Below are positions 2,105 to 14,419 of a stretch of DNA of 56,111 nt, one piece after another. The position numbers and the translations under genes are program-made. Source of the DNA: Lachnospiraceae bacterium 10-1 (GTDB taxonomy: Bacteria > Bacillota > Clostridia > Lachnospirales > Lachnospiraceae); assembly GCA_000403495.2 (NCBI GenBank), contig KE159823.1, positions 1 through 56,111 of the forward strand. The letters are read 5' to 3'. Each line of letters starts with the position of its first letter. The first letter of the stretch is position 1. Below the pieces are notes generated by a model. It searched no databases and was not told the origin of the DNA. It saw only the letters and a program-made list of their open reading frames with translations.

Positions 2105-2551
2105 TTATTGTTCACTTTCTTCATAATGTAATTTTTGTGCAAAAACAGTCTCTTCGATAACCTGAATACATTCATCAATATTATTCTTTATATCTTTTCC
2201 CCAAAAACGTAAAACCTTCCATCCTAAGAAAGAAAGCTTTTTATTTATTTCATCATCGCGTTCCTTATTTCTTGAAATTTTCTTAATCCAATATTCACTA
2301 TTATTACTTTCTTTAAGGCGTGCTTCAAGAATATCCCAATCCTTTCCATGAAAAAATTCACCATCACAAAAAATAACAATTTTGTACTTAGTAAGTACTA
2401 TATCTGGTCTGCCCGGTAACGCATTAAAATTTTTCCTATATCGGTATCCCTGTTTCCATAAAGCTTTTCTAAGAATTAGTTCAATTTCTGTATTCTTGGA
2501 GCGAATATTCTGCATATTCTTTTTACGCTGTTTTGGAGATAAATTATCCAC
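2105..2551 (-). CDS. vsr: Vsr-family (very short patch repair-like) DNA endonuclease
   Basis: About 148 aa from a GTG start at 2551 (VDNLSPKQRKKNMQNI), chosen because GAGGAAGG sits just upstream. Family marks are MQNIRSKNTEIE near the N-terminus, the metal-binding/catalytic segment PGRPDIVLTKYKIVIFCDG, and LGWKVLRFWGKDI near the end. In E. coli Vsr nicks T:G mismatches left by deamination of 5-methylcytosine. The FWHHH motif of the E. coli enzyme is replaced here by FFHGKDW, which I believe is common in the branch linked to restriction systems. It lies about 116 bp downstream of the methyltransferase and is the last defence gene. It could be a repair partner of the methylase or a restriction nuclease. 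Confidence 0.87.
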   Translation of the reverse strand: MDNLSPKQRKKNMQNIRSKNTEIELILRKALWKQGYRYRKNFNALPGRPDIVLTKYKIVIFCDGEFFHGKDWDILEARLKESNNSEYWIKKISRNKERDDEINKKLSFLGWKVLRFWGKDIKNNIDECIQVIEETVFAQKLHYEESEQ

Positions 2552-2667
2552 CTTATCACCTTCCTCTTGTAAACATTGTTTTTCCAAACAAAAATTAAAA
2601 TTCTATATTAAATTTCTTCATTAAAATTTTAGCAAACATTATTTCATTATTTATCCACATTTTATCT

Positions 2668-4278
2668 TTAGAATATACTATTTTTCCTTAATGACCTATC
2701 AAGTATATTCGCTATTTTTTCAGCAATTGCTTTTGCCATAATCGGTGGAACCGCATTTCCCACTTGTTGATACTGCTTGTCTTTCGTTCCACAAAAAACA
2801 AATGAATCTGGAAATGTCTGCAAACGTGCAGCCTCCCTAACACTAACTGCCCTATCTAACGTAGGATGTATCCACATTGATTTTCTTACATTCACAACTG
2901 TTCCACTTGGTTCTTCATAATTTAATCTCAGATAAATCGTATTTTGTGTTCTCTTAGCATCCGTATATGTATTTGTCTTCAATGACTCCTTTAAACAATG
3001 GAAATTTTGTCCCTGTTCCAGTGCTTTGAATCTTTCCATTGCTGTATCAGTTGTTTTAGTAATAATATGATTTTTCAAAACATCTGCATCCCTCAATTGA
3101 CGTCCTAACTCCTTCATATTATTAAGTACTGGTAGCTTAGTTCCTTTATCTTCAGCGGGAGAATAAACAGGTTCGACCATTTCCAAGTCCTCAATAGCAT
3201 CTCTGACTGTCCTATACTGATCCTCGTCAAAACTACCATTAGGCAATGCTATCCTTTTAGAAATACTTTTTTTAACCCCAACGATTATAAATCTCATTCT
3301 TTTTTGTGGTGCTCCATAATCCGCGGCACATAAAACTTTGCTATTTAATACATAGCCATAATCTTGTGACTGGAGAATACTTTCCAGATAATCATATACT
3401 GCATATGAATAGATACTTACAGCAATATCGCCATTATCTGTATATTGTTCTACTACTAACTCATTGTCAAATATCTCTTTCGCCTTTCCAAGCATTCTCT
3501 GAATCATAATAGACTGCTCTATATTCTCAACAATCATATCGGCTGGAATTTCATTATTATAATATTTTCTAATCGTTCCAAATGCTTTGCTACTTACGTC
3601 TTCAATAAAATGATTAGATTTTTTTTCTATATATTCATCAGCAATTTTTATTAATTTTGACTTATGTTTGTCTAATGCTTTGATTAATTTCTCAGAATTC
3701 TTACAAACTTTGTAGATTACATTTAGCAATAGATAATGTTCTTCTGACCATAAATACATCTCTATTTTGCTTTTGTCTTTTACAATATCAAGCACATCAT
3801 CAAAAGCAAATGCTGCATCTAATAAATGTATTTCTGTCATTTTCTTTGGAATTTTATATTTCTCAACTATATCTTGATCTTTTCTATCCAAATAAAATCT
3901 ATGCACCTCTGACTTTAGCATACTAACATTTTCCATAACAAAAGCCTTAGGCTTTAGAGTGATAATGGCTTGTATATATTGCTTAACGAGCATATTATTT
4001 TGGCTTATTGCATGATTTTTTTGTCGATTCGCATTTGAAAATCCTTGACATGGCGGTCCCCCAATCACAACATCTATTTCACCATAATCTCTCTTTATTT
4101 CATCATAATTTGCTTTACACACATCTCCTTTAACATCCACTTTGGAATGATTTAAACGATATGTTTCCTGCATACATGGATTATTTTCAAATGCAACTTT
4201 TATGTCAAACTTTTGTGTTTGCTTAAATCCCAAACTCAGACCTCCTGCTCCTGCAAACAAATCAACAACTTTATACAC
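2668..4278 (-). CDS. C5-cytosine DNA methyltransferase with a long internal insertion
   Basis: A 536-aa protein that transfers methyl groups from SAM to carbon 5 of cytosine. Visible motifs: I (DLFAGAGGLSLGF), IV with the catalytic Cys (GGPPCQGFSNANRQ), VI (ENVSML), VIII (QKRMRFIIVG) and X (QVGNAVPPIMAKAI). The GTG start at 4278 follows AAAGGAGCAGAGAAA. The family is usually 320-430 aa. The extra length lies between motifs VI and VIII, about 190 mainly helical, charged residues. It sits 18 bp after the AIPR gene in one operon and presumably protects host DNA from the neighbouring nucleases. The target sequence cannot be read from the protein. Confidence 0.93.
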   Translation of the reverse strand: MYKVVDLFAGAGGLSLGFKQTQKFDIKVAFENNPCMQETYRLNHSKVDVKGDVCKANYDEIKRDYGEIDVVIGGPPCQGFSNANRQKNHAISQNNMLVKQYIQAIITLKPKAFVMENVSMLKSEVHRFYLDRKDQDIVEKYKIPKKMTEIHLLDAAFAFDDVLDIVKDKSKIEMYLWSEEHYLLLNVIYKVCKNSEKLIKALDKHKSKLIKIADEYIEKKSNHFIEDVSSKAFGTIRKYYNNEIPADMIVENIEQSIMIQRMLGKAKEIFDNELVVEQYTDNGDIAVSIYSYAVYDYLESILQSQDYGYVLNSKVLCAADYGAPQKRMRFIIVGVKKSISKRIALPNGSFDEDQYRTVRDAIEDLEMVEPVYSPAEDKGTKLPVLNNMKELGRQLRDADVLKNHIITKTTDTAMERFKALEQGQNFHCLKESLKTNTYTDAKRTQNTIYLRLNYEEPSGTVVNVRKSMWIHPTLDRAVSVREAARLQTFPDSFVFCGTKDKQYQQVGNAVPPIMAKAIAEKIANILDRSLRKNSIF

Positions 4279-4296
4279 TTTCTCTGCTCCTTTGTA

Positions 4297-6372
4297 TTAT
4301 ATTTTAAAACCCTCATCTATTGCTCTCTCCAACAAATCCAACAGTCTCTTACTTTGGAAAGCATTTGGAATCTTAGCGGGTATTTTGCAGGCAACCGCCA
4401 AAGCAGAAACATCAATTGGAGAAACTAAATGTTTATTCACTGCAAATTCGGATAAACGTTTCCAATCATTAGAAGAATATTTCACAACATCAACTTGGCT
4501 GTTTATATCATTTTTTATTCTTTGTTCTTTCTTCGCTGTTTTCTCAGCCGACATTGCTTCATCCGTCGTAATCAAATAATTATAAATCTGTTTTGGCAAC
4601 AGATATCTTATACTCTTTACATCATCCCAACACTCAGAACGCTTACACCATTGTGTTACATTAATAACCTTTCTACTTGGATCGGTTATTTTTATAAATG
4701 TTCTTTTTGCTAAATCAATTAAAGTTTCAGATACAACATCCGGCACCTCCTGTTTATTCCATATATAATTTAAATCAAAATCCATTCCGGCAAACTGTTC
4801 TTTTAATAGTCTATGGAACAATGCAATTGTATAATAAATTATATTTGCTCGATAACCACCTTCATACCAATTTTGTTTTGGAATCTGTTTTTCTAACAAC
4901 TGAAACATTAATAATAACGCCGCTGTAGATTGAAAATATCTTTCATTAAATTGCGTATCATTCTTTTCCCATTCATCATTTATCCACTCTGCAAATGATG
5001 CAAAATTTGTTTGTGCTCCTTTACTTACTATATGTGGGTTCTCTCTCCACGTATTTTGCACTTTAGCCAAATCTGTTTTCTTTATAACCTTACTTTTAGG
5101 ATGCTGTAACTCAAACTGTTTCTTTTTAGCTGGTGTCAAACGCATTTGTTCCTGTAAATACTGCCCTCTAGCTCTTTCATAAAACCATTTTGTTTCATAC
5201 TGTGCTCCAGAACTTGCCGGTGCAAATAAATGTCTTGAAATTTGTTCCATTCTCCGATGAAAAGGATGTGAAGCAAAGAAATCAGCATCACTAACCTTGT
5301 TTTGACTGTTAGATGATCTAGAAATATTTCTAATTAACTCATCAGACTCTTCTTGAGTTGTTTCATCTATCGCAGTCAATTTCATTTGCACATATATATT
5401 ATCAAGCACTGCCTTATCTTTATATCTTGCATTTGATATCGAAGCAGTAGTTTGTCCACCATTTATAATTTGAAAATCTCTTGCAGATTTTATAAATTTC
5501 CCTTTGCTAGTTGTTTCTATTTGAACATCCATAGCTGTTGCAGATATCCCATTGTTAAAAGCAAAAAACATTTCTGGAGAATTCAAAATTGTTGCTCGAA
5601 TTTTCTTATTCACAGCCACTTTAGTAGACAAAAAAGAGCGTACATTGCCCTCAAGCAATTTACTTCCATGTTTATCATAGATATCAGCCAAAACTGTTCC
5701 GGGAACAACCCCCAAAAAACTGCTATACTGTTCTGTAACAGCTGAACTAGCTTCTAAACAGGGAATCCCATTCTCACAATATTCTGTAAAATCAATTTCA
5801 ATAATTTGCCTGCCTTGTTCAGAACAACACACTCTAAACAGACGCTCTATATCCCATATCTGCCCCTCAACTGATATTCCGTTGTAATCTTCTATGTCTA
5901 CAGTTTTTATTACAGAACTCATATCTGCATCTGTAAAAATAAACAATCGATATTTTTTAATTTTATCTTTAGTTGCACGAAGCATATCAACTAAATCGGA
6001 ACATGGTGTACTGATTTCAATTTCTTCATAAAAATTTGTATTTATTGCAACGTCAATAAAGTATCGTAATTGCTTAAATATACTCTTTGCATTTGTATTT
6101 GTCAGGGTTCGATTTCCATTAATTCCCTCATAATCAGCTATGATAAGATTCATTGTATAATCCAATTCATCTAAAGAATATCCATCAATGCGATATTTAC
6201 GAGCCCCTTTGTGTCCTTTATAAAATGACGGATAAAAATCTGGAATAACTTCTATATCAACAAGATACTGTGCCATATTTTCTACAAAGGATGCACATGA
6301 ACCTTCACCAGTAACTGAAGCTGTTGCCTTTGCACTTTCCAAAAATTCTTTTTTAAACTCTTGGCAATCCAT
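4297..6372 (-). CDS. AIPR (abortive infection phage resistance) family protein
   Basis: A 691-aa protein with the AIPR signature in its middle third: AFNNGISATAMDVQIE, then DFQIINGGQTTASISNARY. An ISRSSNSQNKVSDADFFASH segment follows. AIPR proteins occur in abortive-infection and restriction-type defence loci, and several are predicted or shown to be nucleases or nucleic-acid binding. The ATG at 6372 follows GAGGTAATTTTT. It is 5 bp from the PD-(D/E)XK gene and 18 bp from the methyltransferase, so it is clearly operonic. In Mza-type systems an AIPR protein is one of the essential parts. Confidence 0.87.
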   Translation of the reverse strand: MDCQEFKKEFLESAKATASVTGEGSCASFVENMAQYLVDIEVIPDFYPSFYKGHKGARKYRIDGYSLDELDYTMNLIIADYEGINGNRTLTNTNAKSIFKQLRYFIDVAINTNFYEEIEISTPCSDLVDMLRATKDKIKKYRLFIFTDADMSSVIKTVDIEDYNGISVEGQIWDIERLFRVCCSEQGRQIIEIDFTEYCENGIPCLEASSAVTEQYSSFLGVVPGTVLADIYDKHGSKLLEGNVRSFLSTKVAVNKKIRATILNSPEMFFAFNNGISATAMDVQIETTSKGKFIKSARDFQIINGGQTTASISNARYKDKAVLDNIYVQMKLTAIDETTQEESDELIRNISRSSNSQNKVSDADFFASHPFHRRMEQISRHLFAPASSGAQYETKWFYERARGQYLQEQMRLTPAKKKQFELQHPKSKVIKKTDLAKVQNTWRENPHIVSKGAQTNFASFAEWINDEWEKNDTQFNERYFQSTAALLLMFQLLEKQIPKQNWYEGGYRANIIYYTIALFHRLLKEQFAGMDFDLNYIWNKQEVPDVVSETLIDLAKRTFIKITDPSRKVINVTQWCKRSECWDDVKSIRYLLPKQIYNYLITTDEAMSAEKTAKKEQRIKNDINSQVDVVKYSSNDWKRLSEFAVNKHLVSPIDVSALAVACKIPAKIPNAFQSKRLLDLLERAIDEGFKI

Positions 6373-6377
6373 AAAAA

Positions 6378-7301
6378 TTACCTCTTTCTATACTTTTCTA
6401 TTGCAGATAAAGATAAATTATACTCGCATGATACAATTTCTCCACTCACATTATCTCCTGTTAGCTTTGGAAATGCTCTATCTACCCGGTATTCTCGTTC
6501 TTCTATCAGTCGAAATTGATTATTACAATATTCTTTTTCATGACCTTTTCTATATCCGTATTTATACAATTTCAACTCAAAACGATCTATATATCTTGCA
6601 TTATTCAATAATTTTTCTCTGATTTCATATACTATATTTATTAGATTCACCCGTTTTGCTCCTACTGTAGTACTTTCTAAAACAAAAATAACCAAATCTC
6701 CATCATTTTCCTGTTTCAACTGTTGCAAAGAAGATATATGTACGGTTTCAGATGCTAAGGAAATACTTTTAATCTCTGCCCAATCCATTGAAAATACAAA
6801 GTCCTGATCTCCACCATCCGGACCAACCCAAGAATCAATTGCATATTCAACGCCACAATTATCTATTACTTTTAACAGATATAATAATTCCCCTAGTAAA
6901 CCTTTTTGCCTCTGAAAAGACATTACATTTTTATTTTCATATTGTAATAACTTTTGCCATGTCATATATCGATAAATAAGCGCATTAAGCGGTTGTTTTT
7001 CAGCAAAACTGTATTCAATCATATCCCAGCATAACTTCAAAAACTCTTCTTCAAATTTGGCATGAATCAATTGAAATTCCAAAATCCAAGTGGAATCCTT
7101 TAATTGTACATTTGTTACTTTAACCGCAAAAGATGATGGTATATTTTTTATCACTCCTGTATCCATCACAACAAAACTTTTATAAGCATTAATTGAATAT
7201 CCAATCTGCAAGTCAAGTGGATGATTTAGCCCTAATTTCAAAAATCCATTTCCTTTAGCCGGTATATTATCCCATTTATCTTTCAAATCCTTAAATAACA
7301 T
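6378..7301 (-). CDS. PD-(D/E)XK motif protein, DUF4420 family
   Basis: About 308 aa from an ATG at 7301 (MLFKDLKDKWDNI), preceded by GAGGATGACG. An in-frame ATG at 7316 is also possible. The nuclease core is visible as a conserved Glu in QKGLLGELLYLL and the D...ExK pair in GGDQDFVFSMDWAEIKSIS. The family is found with MutL-like ATPases and Z1 helicases in predicted restriction-like defence systems and is probably the DNA-cutting component. The gene overlaps the end of the Z1 gene by 11 bp and is followed after 5 bp by the AIPR gene, indicating translational coupling. Confidence 0.85.
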   Translation of the reverse strand: MLFKDLKDKWDNIPAKGNGFLKLGLNHPLDLQIGYSINAYKSFVVMDTGVIKNIPSSFAVKVTNVQLKDSTWILEFQLIHAKFEEEFLKLCWDMIEYSFAEKQPLNALIYRYMTWQKLLQYENKNVMSFQRQKGLLGELLYLLKVIDNCGVEYAIDSWVGPDGGDQDFVFSMDWAEIKSISLASETVHISSLQQLKQENDGDLVIFVLESTTVGAKRVNLINIVYEIREKLLNNARYIDRFELKLYKYGYRKGHEKEYCNNQFRLIEEREYRVDRAFPKLTGDNVSGEIVSCEYNLSLSAIEKYRKR

Positions 7302-10053
7302 CGTCATCCTCATCATTTATATCATCTACTGTAACATAATTCTTTAATTCTGTTGTATTCACAACATAACTTGCGCTTTTTTCTGATTTACCTCCCGGAA
7401 ATCCTAATCCTATAGCATAAAAATATTCAGGAAAACCTCTTAATTCTTCATTCGTATTTTTCATCAAATGTATTAACGCTAATGGATATCTGCCTTCTAT
7501 AAGGTAGGTTTTATCTGTTGCTTTTCCATTGGCTGCTTTTCTTAATTCTTTTATTGTATTTTCTTCCAAACCAATCTTTGTACATCCCCCCATTCCAACT
7601 CTTACATGTCTATCATTCACCTTTAACATTTTACCAAATGTACCATCACTTGTTATTTTTCTCTTTTCTGGATGTATTTGTATTTCTTCTGTTTCAGATA
7701 AAACAAGTGGATATTCCTCTTCCACTGACCCCATAGGAATTGCAACATCCCACACTTCTAATGAGTTATCATTTTCAATAAAATCAGCAAGTGCAATTGA
7801 TTGAAAATTCAAATTCCATGGATGTGATTTATATTCTTTTACCAAATCTACAATTGCCTTTCTTGGCACATTCTTCCAAATATATGCCTTTGTATATTCG
7901 TCATAGTATCTCGCCACTCGTCCCATCAAATTAACACATTTTATAGTTCTTTCGCACAAGGTATTATTATCAATAATGATATCAACATCATTCCATAACC
8001 TTGCTGTTTCTACCATCCTCTTTGATAATGTAATGGGAATATTTACTTTTGTTCCACTTCTCATTTTATTTTTTGCAGTTACAATTAATGCACCCGGATC
8101 CTGCCTTACCTTCAGTCCGAAATCTTCCGGTGTAAGATTCTGCATTGCCATATTTTTTAGTTCTTTCTTTAATTCATTAAATGCGTCTGTAATATATGCA
8201 TACCATCCTACCGCATCTTCACCTATCCAGATTTTAAATAAGTCATCATAATTATTTCTGTAGCCGAACCATCTCCCCATTTGTAATAATGTATCATACA
8301 TCATTGTATTTCTATAAAAATAACTTACACATAATCCTTCAAGAGTAAGTCCCCTTGATAAACTATTTCCTCCCACTGCAATCACGCGCATTCCAATATT
8401 TTTATAATTATAAAAATCTAGGCTTTTTGCCCCGGTTTTTTGATTAACAGGTCGCACCTCTATCCTTCTTACAGCCTTAAACAAATACTCTTTTAGCAAA
8501 ATATCCCAAGACAAATTTGCAATTTCTTCCAGATTATATTTTTTCCAAATATTATTGAACATTCTAATACTTTTTATTTTCATCGCCTGTTCAATTGCCA
8601 GCTTTGAATAATTCTCCAAATCCGTTCTAAGCTGATTAACATATTCTTTGATTAACTCACTCGTTACAAGTTGTACCTTTGTATAGCGACTAACATTAAC
8701 CATCATTGAACGATGTTCATTTACATCATACCTATAATCTGTTATTGCATTTACCAAACAAAAGTATCCTATTGCTTCATACAAAGACGGAGGAAGCTCA
8801 TACAATTCATCAGCCAATTCCTTTTTATGTTTAAATACAAAAAAGTCTTCTTGCTCTTCATTTTTTATTTCAATTACAGAAGAACTATATTCTCCTTCTA
8901 CTCTATCATTCCAATCATCTTCACTTCCATTTCCAAAAATTTTATCAGCACCTATATATCTTTCTGGTGTTGGCAATAATGTCAAAAAGTGTCTTGGAAA
9001 TAAATCTTTTGCAGCTCCGTCTTCAGCCATTTGTGGATCAATAAATATATTTGCAAACGGAGTCGCTGTAATCCCCATGTATGTTGTTTGCTTAAACGCT
9101 CTTAAAATTTTATTTATTGCCGCATTGATTGCAGTTGGATCCATCTCTTCAGAATTCGTATTCACAGAAGCGTTATCAGCCTCATCATCAATAAGCAACA
9201 TCGGCAAATTCAAAACATCTTCATCCTTTGTCAGCCATTTAAACAAATTATTAAGAACACTCTTGTTCTTCTTCACTACAAATAAAGCAGTTCCCTTCAA
9301 ATCATTCAAATTAAGCCCATTTGATTTAATAACACTTGCATTAAAATCTGTTGATACAGATGTAAAACGTGTGATTCTTTTATTTGAAACAAAAGGCGGC
9401 ACTTTACCAACTCCAACCGGAACATTCCGCATTGAACTATCTGCCTTATTATCCAATGTGTATTTACTATCCAATCCTACAAATTCAGCATCCAAACGTT
9501 CCTGCGTTTGAATCCTAAGATTTTCCATCATACCAGCCAAGACAATAATCACTCTATATCCAGTATCTGTTGCCTTATTGCAAATTGCTGTGTATGTTGC
9601 TGTTTTTCCAGATTGAACATCCCCCAACAACAATCCCCTTCTTTGAAATGGCTCACCACTCTGTGGATTGCCAAGATCATCCATAATATCTTCCGTTGTC
9701 TTATGTAATCTTTCTACTACCAGCCGACTCCATTTCTTTTTACTTGAAAGATAATCTTTATATCTGTTCCAAAAAAATCCATCATTTTCACTTAATTTAT
9801 ACCATCCATATTGATGTGAACTATCCCTCATTCTTAATGTATCAGCATAGCCTATGCTATGTAAAATATTCTCAGGAAGACGCTTTTTAATACTTTCAAA
9901 TTCATCCTCTGAAACAGGATACATTGATTTTAAAATTTCTCTCAATGATTCAGCCTCAGAATATATTTGGTCTACTGTAGGAAGTTTATTTGTATACTTA
10001 GTTTCTATGATTTGTCTTATTTGATTAAACACAATTTCCATATTTTTCGTCAT
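7291..10053 (-). CDS. Z1 domain superfamily-2 helicase-like ATPase
   Basis: About 920 aa from ATG 10053 (MTKNMEIVFNQI), which follows GAGGGAAAATTACA and forms a 4-bp ATGA overlap with the upstream ATPase gene. SF2 motifs are clear: Walker A (LLLGDVQSGKTATY), Walker B/DEAD (LLIDDEADNASV), motif III (GITATPFANIF) and the arginine-finger region (LLQMGRWFGYRNNY), which together define the Z1 family. Z1 proteins accompany GHKL ATPases and nucleases in bacterial defence loci and probably translocate on or remodel DNA. The C-terminal 300 residues (from about 620) have no domain I can name. Confidence 0.93.
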   Translation of the reverse strand: MTKNMEIVFNQIRQIIETKYTNKLPTVDQIYSEAESLREILKSMYPVSEDEFESIKKRLPENILHSIGYADTLRMRDSSHQYGWYKLSENDGFFWNRYKDYLSSKKKWSRLVVERLHKTTEDIMDDLGNPQSGEPFQRRGLLLGDVQSGKTATYTAICNKATDTGYRVIIVLAGMMENLRIQTQERLDAEFVGLDSKYTLDNKADSSMRNVPVGVGKVPPFVSNKRITRFTSVSTDFNASVIKSNGLNLNDLKGTALFVVKKNKSVLNNLFKWLTKDEDVLNLPMLLIDDEADNASVNTNSEEMDPTAINAAINKILRAFKQTTYMGITATPFANIFIDPQMAEDGAAKDLFPRHFLTLLPTPERYIGADKIFGNGSEDDWNDRVEGEYSSSVIEIKNEEQEDFFVFKHKKELADELYELPPSLYEAIGYFCLVNAITDYRYDVNEHRSMMVNVSRYTKVQLVTSELIKEYVNQLRTDLENYSKLAIEQAMKIKSIRMFNNIWKKYNLEEIANLSWDILLKEYLFKAVRRIEVRPVNQKTGAKSLDFYNYKNIGMRVIAVGGNSLSRGLTLEGLCVSYFYRNTMMYDTLLQMGRWFGYRNNYDDLFKIWIGEDAVGWYAYITDAFNELKKELKNMAMQNLTPEDFGLKVRQDPGALIVTAKNKMRSGTKVNIPITLSKRMVETARLWNDVDIIIDNNTLCERTIKCVNLMGRVARYYDEYTKAYIWKNVPRKAIVDLVKEYKSHPWNLNFQSIALADFIENDNSLEVWDVAIPMGSVEEEYPLVLSETEEIQIHPEKRKITSDGTFGKMLKVNDRHVRVGMGGCTKIGLEENTIKELRKAANGKATDKTYLIEGRYPLALIHLMKNTNEELRGFPEYFYAIGLGFPGGKSEKSASYVVNTTELKNYVTVDDINDEDDDVI

Positions 10054-11510
10054 TGTAATTTTCCCTCTTTTATCGCTTGGTCTATTTCTATAATAAAGTT
10101 GCAAAATGGTTCTGTTTTCTTCAACGTTTCAAGCAAATTATTATGAATGCTGTTATCTGCTGTTTTTAATATTTCTTGTAAAGTCAAAATAATTTCCTTA
10201 CTGCTTTTATCCCTTTCATTTTCAACCTTTTCATCATTAATCAAATCTAAATACAATGAATTTAATGGTATGTTTTCTTCAATTTGTTTCATTAACAGTG
10301 ACAGTCTATTTGCAATTTCAATATTCTCCCTTTGTATCTCAACCAATAATGGATATTCTCTATTTATTTCATATATAAAGCCACCTGCTCTGGTTTTATA
10401 TCTGATCCAAACATGAACTACCGAGTCATCTAACTCTTTTTTCCCTCTATATGTCCATGTTCTCTTACTTTTATCTGCAAGTTTTTCGATAATACTCTTC
10501 AAATTATTTCTCACTTCTGCAGGTGGTATTGCAGAAGACTTTTTAATATCTAAGGTCCACAAATCGTCAAGGTCATTCGGAATATCCACTCTAATTCTCG
10601 CCAGCTTGGACGTTTCACCCTGCCGCATCATTCTGAACCAAGTTCCCCAAACTAATAAGCGTTTATTTCTATACACATAAAATCCTTGTCGCTTTCTCAA
10701 TCCCTCTTTTCCGCCCATGACTTTAATCTCATCCGAGGTCATTTTAGAGATATGTGGAAGAAGATACGGTCTAACTTCTATTTTCTTTCCTCGAATAATC
10801 AATATTTCATCATCCATTACTTGTACGCTTTTAGAAGTCAAAAAAGGATCTACTGGTTCAACCTCCATATTATTTATTTTAATAGTTAATTTCCTTATTC
10901 CTGTTTCTCCAAACAAATATCTATGATAAACGAGTGATAAGTGCTCTCTCACATTACCTATCTTTCTGCCTAATTCTTGTTCAAAATTTATTTCTCCTGT
11001 TTTTAAACGATCTAACTTTTGCCAAATAACTAATGTACCCGTTTTATACTTCATTAACTGTTCAATATTAGGTATCTCCTGAATTTCATTACTATCGAGA
11101 ATTAATAATGACCATTTTCCTGTTTTTGAAACATAGTCTATATCCCATCTTTTCGCCAATAGCAAATCATCAATTTTTGTTACAACTGTAAGTACTCTGC
11201 ATTGCGACAAAGATGCTGTTTTTAATCCTAACCCAAATCTTCCTAAATCTTCTTTACTTCTCTCCTCCAACGGATTCTTACTGCCATATTGCATTGCAGA
11301 AGTCAATTCATTCTCATCCATACCTCTTCCATTATCTAATATAGCAACATACTCTTCATCAATTGGAAAAAAATATAAATCAACATTACTTGCCCCTGCA
11401 GCAATACTATTGTCAATAATATCAGCAATTGCTGCTTCTAATGAATAACCTATTGCACGTGTAGATTCAATCAACGTAGGTGCATATGGTGGTAATTCAA
11501 CTGATTTCAT
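10050..11510 (-). CDS. MutL/MORC-like GHKL ATPase
   Basis: A 486-aa protein with a GHKL (Hsp90/MutL/kinase) ATP-binding fold at the N-terminus. N box: LEAAIADIIDNSIAAGAS. G1: VAILDNGRGMDENEL. G2: GRFGLGLKTASLSQ. The DNSIxAGA form of the N box is typical of MutL/MORC-type ATPases. The remaining half has charged helices and lacks a MutL endonuclease motif. It is the first large gene of the defence operon and probably acts as an ATP-gated clamp or sensor that recruits the Z1 helicase and nuclease. Published work predicted such ATPases in restriction-like systems, and Mza systems contain one. Confidence 0.9.
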   Translation of the reverse strand: MKSVELPPYAPTLIESTRAIGYSLEAAIADIIDNSIAAGASNVDLYFFPIDEEYVAILDNGRGMDENELTSAMQYGSKNPLEERSKEDLGRFGLGLKTASLSQCRVLTVVTKIDDLLLAKRWDIDYVSKTGKWSLLILDSNEIQEIPNIEQLMKYKTGTLVIWQKLDRLKTGEINFEQELGRKIGNVREHLSLVYHRYLFGETGIRKLTIKINNMEVEPVDPFLTSKSVQVMDDEILIIRGKKIEVRPYLLPHISKMTSDEIKVMGGKEGLRKRQGFYVYRNKRLLVWGTWFRMMRQGETSKLARIRVDIPNDLDDLWTLDIKKSSAIPPAEVRNNLKSIIEKLADKSKRTWTYRGKKELDDSVVHVWIRYKTRAGGFIYEINREYPLLVEIQRENIEIANRLSLLMKQIEENIPLNSLYLDLINDEKVENERDKSSKEIILTLQEILKTADNSIHNNLLETLKKTEPFCNFIIEIDQAIKEGKLQ

Positions 11511-11591
11511 GGAAACAAGCCTCCTTTATACATACTTTTGATTTATTTCGTAAATATACTTATAAAATCATCTACTGCCCTTTACTCACAT

Positions 11592-11771
11592 TTAATACCC
11601 ATCTCTACATATTCGCCGCGGATCTTTTGGTTTTTCAATATTTTCTGGTATTAGCCATGTCTTCCCTTTCAAAACAGCTCCTTCAATTCTTCCTTCTTTA
11701 CAATATATAGCAACCCTTCTTTGTGATATCTTCCATATCTTTGCATATTCTGCTGTCGTCAGAAAATTCAT
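11592..11771 (-). CDS. small helix-turn-helix (excisionase/MerR-like) protein
   Basis: A 59-aa protein beginning MNFLTTAEYAKIWKISQRRV and ending PRRICRDGY. The pattern is that of the single-domain excisionase-type HTH: a T.xEYA helix, a recognition helix ISQRRVAIYCKEGRI, and a wing GAVLKGKTWLIP. The ribosome binding site GGAGGAC is 10 bases before the ATG. It is 81 bp upstream of the GHKL ATPase gene in the same direction and directly under a strong promoter, so it is the first gene of the defence operon. By analogy with restriction-system control proteins it may regulate the operon, but an excisionase-like architectural role is also possible. Confidence 0.85.
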   Translation of the reverse strand: MNFLTTAEYAKIWKISQRRVAIYCKEGRIEGAVLKGKTWLIPENIEKPKDPRRICRDGY

Positions 11772-11811: not shown

Positions 11812-11840
11812 ATTATATTCGTTTATACGAATATTTTCAA
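11812..11840 (-). promoter_or_regulatory. promoter of the defence operon
   Basis: On the minus strand TTGAAA (11835-11840) and TATAAT (11812-11817) are separated by exactly 17 bp, a near-consensus sigma-A promoter. It lies about 40 bp upstream of the small HTH gene. Confidence 0.8.
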
Positions 11841-12249: not shown

Positions 12250-12362
12250 CGCTTGCATTATATTGGGGAGAACATCCGCTGTCAAGAATTTTAGTCCTAG
12301 CCGAAAATTCTTGACAGCGGATGTTCTCCCCAATGAATGGCAGCCAAGGCAAAGTATACGGA
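12237..12362. repeat. large inverted repeat with perfect 31-bp inner arms
   Basis: The inner arms (12262-12292 and 12304-12334) are perfect complements of 31 bp around an 11-base loop. Outer arms CCGCATACTTTGCC and GGCAAAGTATACGG extend the structure imperfectly to 12237 and 12362. There is no T-tract on either side. It begins inside the last unit of the 21-bp array. The size suits a MITE-like or dispersed intergenic repeat, or the folded end of a mobile element, rather than a terminator. No transposase lies nearby. Confidence 0.65.
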
Positions 12363-12600: not shown

Positions 12601-14340
12601 CTAAATCATCTGAAAATGCCTCAAAGCATCCTCTATCGCCTTTTCCTTCTCTAATGGCACTTGTGGAACCCTCGCCTTTCCCTCTCCCGTATTATAGTTG
12701 ATTCTTTCTATTATGCCATGTTTCCTTTTCACCTGTGCAATATAAAGCTGTGATACTTTCAAATTATATTTCTCTAATACATAATCCTTTATCTCCGCAT
12801 AAGTCGCCTTACTCTCCGCTTTCGTCAAATCCATTTCATCAAGATCAATCTTCACTTCTATATGCTGTGTTGATTTTAGTTTGGACAATAATACGCACGT
12901 CTCCACATGCACCGTCTGCGGAAACATATCCACCGCCCTGACTCGTTTCAGCTCATATCCACCCCCGCATAACGTCTTTAAATCCCTGGCAAGTGTAGCG
13001 CTGTCACAGCTTATATAAACAATCCGATCCGGCTTCATCTTAAGCATAGTTGCAAGACAGGCTTCATCACAGCCTTTTCTGGGCGGATCTACAACAATCA
13101 CATCTGCTGAAATTCCTTCCTTCTCATACTTCTCAGGAAGCACCTCTTCTGCCTTTCCCGCAAAAAACTGTGCATTACAAATTCCATTATTAACCGCATT
13201 TTTTCTGGCATCATCTATTGCCTGTGGTATGATTTCCACCCCATTTACCTGCATGACATCTTTTGCCAAAAATAAAGAAATTGTACCTATTCCACAATAC
13301 AGATCCCATACCGTTTCCTTTCCCGTTAACCCTGCGTAAGAAAGAGCCAGGCTATACAACTTTTCTGTCTGCAAAGGATTCACCTGGTAAAAGGAAAGAG
13401 GCGAAATAGTAAATGTAATACCACGCCCGGAATCTGCAAAGTTATTTTTTACATCCCGTACATGAATGGTATCTTTAATAACATCCTCCCCCCATATAGT
13501 ATGAATTTCTTTCCCCATAATCACATTCGTTTTTTCCGAATTTATGCTGATAGAAATACTTTTCATTCCCTGCACCCTGATAAGCGCCTCAATCAGTCCC
13601 TTTTGGGCAGGCAGATATTCCCCACCAGAGACACCAGTCTTGCTACGCCTGTCGGAACCGGCTTTCTTATCACCGGCATTTATTACCACACAAACCATAA
13701 TTTCACCGCTTGAAAAACCCTTGCGGATCAAAACATGACGAATCAATCCTTTTCCGCTCACCTCATCATAAGCAGACACACTATTTGTTTTCATATAGGA
13801 AAGAATAATTTCCAATATTTCCTTATTCTCTTCTGCTCCAAGACTGCACTCCGTGTTTGCAATTATGGCATGTGTTCTGCCAGCGTAAAAACCTGCAACA
13901 GGATTTCCTTCCTTATCTCTGCCAATTGGATACTGTGCTTTATTTCTATAATGAAAAGGCGTATCCATCGAAACAATAGGTTCCATAATCCGGTTAATCA
14001 GTTCCGGTTCAAATTCCCCAATTCGAATCAAATGATTCCTCACCTTGGATTCCTTAAATTCCAATTGGCGTTTGTAGCTCATGGCTTGTATCTGACATCC
14101 ACCACATTGTCTGTGAAAAGCACACTTTGCATCCACACGAAAAGGAGAAGGTGTAAGCACCTTCTCTAACCTGGCATAAGCATAATTTTTCTTCACCCTC
14201 GTTACACGAATTTCTGCCTGATCCCCAATTACCGTATCTTTTATAAAAAAGGGATACCCATTTATTTTTCCAATGCCTTCTCCTTCTGACGTTATGTCTA
14301 CAATTTCAACTGTCAGAATTTGATTTTTTTCATAACTCAT
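12601..14340 (-). CDS. rlmD: 23S rRNA (uracil-5-)-methyltransferase, RlmD/RlmCD type
   Basis: 579 aa from ATG 14340 (MSYEKNQIL). The upstream TTG at 14352 abuts the GAGGAA ribosome site and is less likely. An N-terminal TRAM domain is followed by the 4Fe-4S cysteines (CAFHRQCGGCQ), a SAM fold (WDLYCGIGTISLFL), the substrate loop DPPRKGCDEAC and the nucleophile region YISCDSATLARDL. The enzyme makes 5-methyluridine in 23S rRNA. A C-terminal extension of about 90 residues beyond the methyltransferase fold (TYAEIKDYVLEKYNLKVSQL to the end) appears to be a separate small domain. The gene lies downstream of yhaM on the same strand, separated by about 80 bp. Confidence 0.93.
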   Translation of the reverse strand: MSYEKNQILTVEIVDITSEGEGIGKINGYPFFIKDTVIGDQAEIRVTRVKKNYAYARLEKVLTPSPFRVDAKCAFHRQCGGCQIQAMSYKRQLEFKESKVRNHLIRIGEFEPELINRIMEPIVSMDTPFHYRNKAQYPIGRDKEGNPVAGFYAGRTHAIIANTECSLGAEENKEILEIILSYMKTNSVSAYDEVSGKGLIRHVLIRKGFSSGEIMVCVVINAGDKKAGSDRRSKTGVSGGEYLPAQKGLIEALIRVQGMKSISISINSEKTNVIMGKEIHTIWGEDVIKDTIHVRDVKNNFADSGRGITFTISPLSFYQVNPLQTEKLYSLALSYAGLTGKETVWDLYCGIGTISLFLAKDVMQVNGVEIIPQAIDDARKNAVNNGICNAQFFAGKAEEVLPEKYEKEGISADVIVVDPPRKGCDEACLATMLKMKPDRIVYISCDSATLARDLKTLCGGGYELKRVRAVDMFPQTVHVETCVLLSKLKSTQHIEVKIDLDEMDLTKAESKATYAEIKDYVLEKYNLKVSQLYIAQVKRKHGIIERINYNTGEGKARVPQVPLEKEKAIEDALRHFQMI

Positions 14341-14419
14341 ACTCTTTCCCAATTCCTCAAAAATTCACACCCTATAAGGTGTTTTTCCTATACTCCATAG
14401 CTGCCTGAAAAGCAAAATA

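Follow-up and report, generated by a model that had tools for sequence, protein, structure and literature searches.

The stretch analysed here (the window) is 56,111 nt of contig KE159823.1 from Lachnospiraceae bacterium 10-1, a gut-type bacterium, and it carries at positions 2105–11771 a seven-gene defence operon, all on the minus strand. The operon, already recognized in a preliminary description of this DNA, is real; it looks intact and is one member of a previously predicted system. At its head lies the gene for a small DNA-binding protein of the HTH_17 family (11592–11771, 59 amino acids), which, on a marginal HTH match, is the probable regulator of the operon; in the relative L057, a homolog is found where the MORC gene begins. 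A promoter-like site, TTGAAA-17-TATAAT, lies 5′ of the HTH gene (11812–11840, minus strand) but is a consensus match only, and sites of this kind are not enriched relative to shuffled sequence.

Four genes form the core. They encode a MORC-type GHKL ATPase resembling MzaB (10050–11510, 486 amino acids; HATPase_c_3, 121 bits), a helicase, previously labeled Z1 (7291–10053), a MzaD-like DUF4420 nuclease of the PD-(D/E)XK type (6378–7316, 184 bits, with multiple candidate ATG starts from 7316 to 7301) and a MzaE-like AIPR protein (4297–6372, 691 amino acids; AIPR, 340 bits; AIPR_N, 145 bits). A C5-cytosine DNA methylase (2668–4278, 536 amino acids; DNA_methylase, 206 bits) and a Vsr endonuclease with a TTG start (2105–2587, 160 amino acids; TIGR00632, 143 bits, above the cut-off of 97.85) complete the operon. 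Profile searches matched the DUF4420, AIPR, GHKL-type ATPase and Vsr assignments proposed earlier.

The motifs of these proteins agree with the third type of MORC operon described by Iyer, Abhiman and Aravind (2008; PMC2292703). The ATPase sequence GFYVYRNKRLL fits their MORC motif GhXhhpXXRhl; the motif lies at residue 276 and is present in 31/31 complete cores. The ATPase had been called MutL-like, and its GHKL kinship with MutL stands, but MORC-type is the better label, given this motif and a top PDB match to MORC2, with PMS2 and MutL ranking behind. In the closest relative, L034, the MORC gene is broken into two overlapping reading frames, through either a frameshift or a sequencing error. 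The helicase motif DTLLQMGRWFG fits DThhQXuRhFG, and alongside the helicase stands a separate nuclease with the E-D-ExK pattern, its residues E143, D172, E181 and K183 identical in all 31 cores. In the AIPR protein, the NNG, NGGQT and RG residues are invariant across 23 aligned proteins, as are D62 and H80 in 12/12 aligned Vsr proteins.

In addition to the S5-motif ATPase, the superfamily II (SFII) helicase and the nuclease, the account of this third type lists Dcm and Vsr, and AIPR is named in a figure legend. It describes a general class, of which the window operon is a single member. Miller et al. (2022; PMC9523054) define a putative “type II” defense system by AIPR, an associated MORC protein and a regulator, all of which we find here (the last with the marginal HTH match), and list a methylase for such operons; their type II section does not name Vsr and gives no methylase exchange, insertion, B3 cases or mechanism. 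The methylase and Vsr, earlier read as additions making a new composite, were therefore both on record in 2008, and the methylase again in 2022. An R protein in the style of CglI or NgoAVII, with a PLD nuclease and a B3 domain (the layout of Pfam RE_NgoFVII), had no match among the window proteins scanned.

A C5-methylase lies within 1.8 kb of each of the 31 complete cores, and Vsr was found for 22. Given this constant proximity, the methylase most likely modifies host DNA to mark it as self, which supports the earlier proposal of a restriction-like operon. Alignment and motif spacing place an insertion of ∼165 residues between motifs VI and VIII of the window's methylase, whose subfamily was found with 14/31 complete cores. 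The genes of the uncharacterized PADLOC candidate PDC-M33 stand behind the same inserted methylase subfamily (L089:9174–14945 and L090:9201–15025), which suggests that this candidate is a restriction system.

Comparison with relatives further suggests that the methylase is swapped while the cutting machinery stays constant. In L051 and L125 both methylase and B3 are exchanged, and the core proteins are full length, with diverged segments that are only borderline. The B3-like DNA-binding proteins of these loci (L051:13051–13665 and L125:9832–10452) stand alone; in NgoFVII-type R proteins, the part that they match is the C-terminal half. From sequence comparison, we consider it probable that the operon restricts DNA in an ATP-dependent, methylation-gated manner, and its specificity module may be swappable: the fixed core would be the cutting engine, and the methylase-linked module perhaps an exchangeable source of targeting.

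Specificity might instead not travel with the methylase or B3, a less likely but substantial alternative. It would fit the DUF4420 protein being the least conserved core protein in 30/30 comparisons with the window, and L126 and L058, where an ordinary methylase adjoins the core with no intervening gene. The L051 and L125 cores described above speak against it, as does L147, whose methylase is 66% identical to the window's while its core proteins are only 21–34% identical.

The operon was also described as of the Mza type (mzaABCDE), and we consider it unlikely that it is a Mza-like defense sensing infection by other means, with the methylase a mere frequent neighbor in defense islands. Homologs of MzaB, C, D and E do form a single run, but their scores (350/850, 486/1500, 107/420 and 336/1050 bits against the NCBIfam equivalog cut-offs) all fall far short, and the methylase and Vsr set the operon apart from Mza, the former accompanying every complete core. 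A search of the genome for the MzaA sigma factor gave ten matches, on contigs 1, 11, 18 and 22, and none on contig 24, which carries the operon; the top match resembles RpoD by eye. Some modification-dependent enzymes combine a multi-subunit ATPase with a PD-(D/E)XK nuclease, a resemblance that could favor a Type IV-like core attacking DNA with foreign modification, but the invariable C5-methylase, here in the same operon, makes this very improbable. Least probable of all is the earlier suggestion that Vsr and a MORC/MutL-like ATPase direct cutting to mismatched DNA: despite the frequency of Vsr and the GHKL kinship, the ATPase is MORC-type by motif, and Vsr was not found in the fetched stretch for 9/31 complete cores, including 5/14 with the window's methylase subfamily. 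Vsr is probably a repair enzyme.

Beyond the operon, a perfect 31-bp inverted repeat with an 11-bp gap (12262–12334; RNA fold −74 kcal/mol, z −14.5) lies ∼270 bp downstream of a putative RlmD-like gene (12601–14352). A second putative RlmD-like gene (G000:C1:739905) is followed, at a similar distance downstream, by a 91% copy of the repeat, and C11 carries a further copy at 79%. The slot downstream of the RlmD-like gene was scanned in four of ten relatives fetched (L108, L109, L110 and L112, of the same genus); each has at least one PADLOC match, all different, comprising type I restriction-modification, AbiD, a MmeI-like type IIG enzyme and Lamassu LmuA/C/B, and the remaining genes there have no PADLOC match.

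As an object the operon, already predicted, offers little novelty; the point of interest is the exchange pattern, of which we found no description in the literature covered, including searches aimed at it, although most subscription papers lay outside that coverage and the pattern may have been published there. In animals and plants, MORC proteins act to silence DNA, and their bacterial kin occur in restriction operons. A swapped methylase on constant cutting machinery would make the targeting of the operon testable. Should a fixed core engine be paired with exchangeable targeting, swaps that occurred in nature, like the B3 graft, would reveal which subunit reads DNA, and would suggest that PDC-M33 restricts DNA too, with a methylase of this subfamily.
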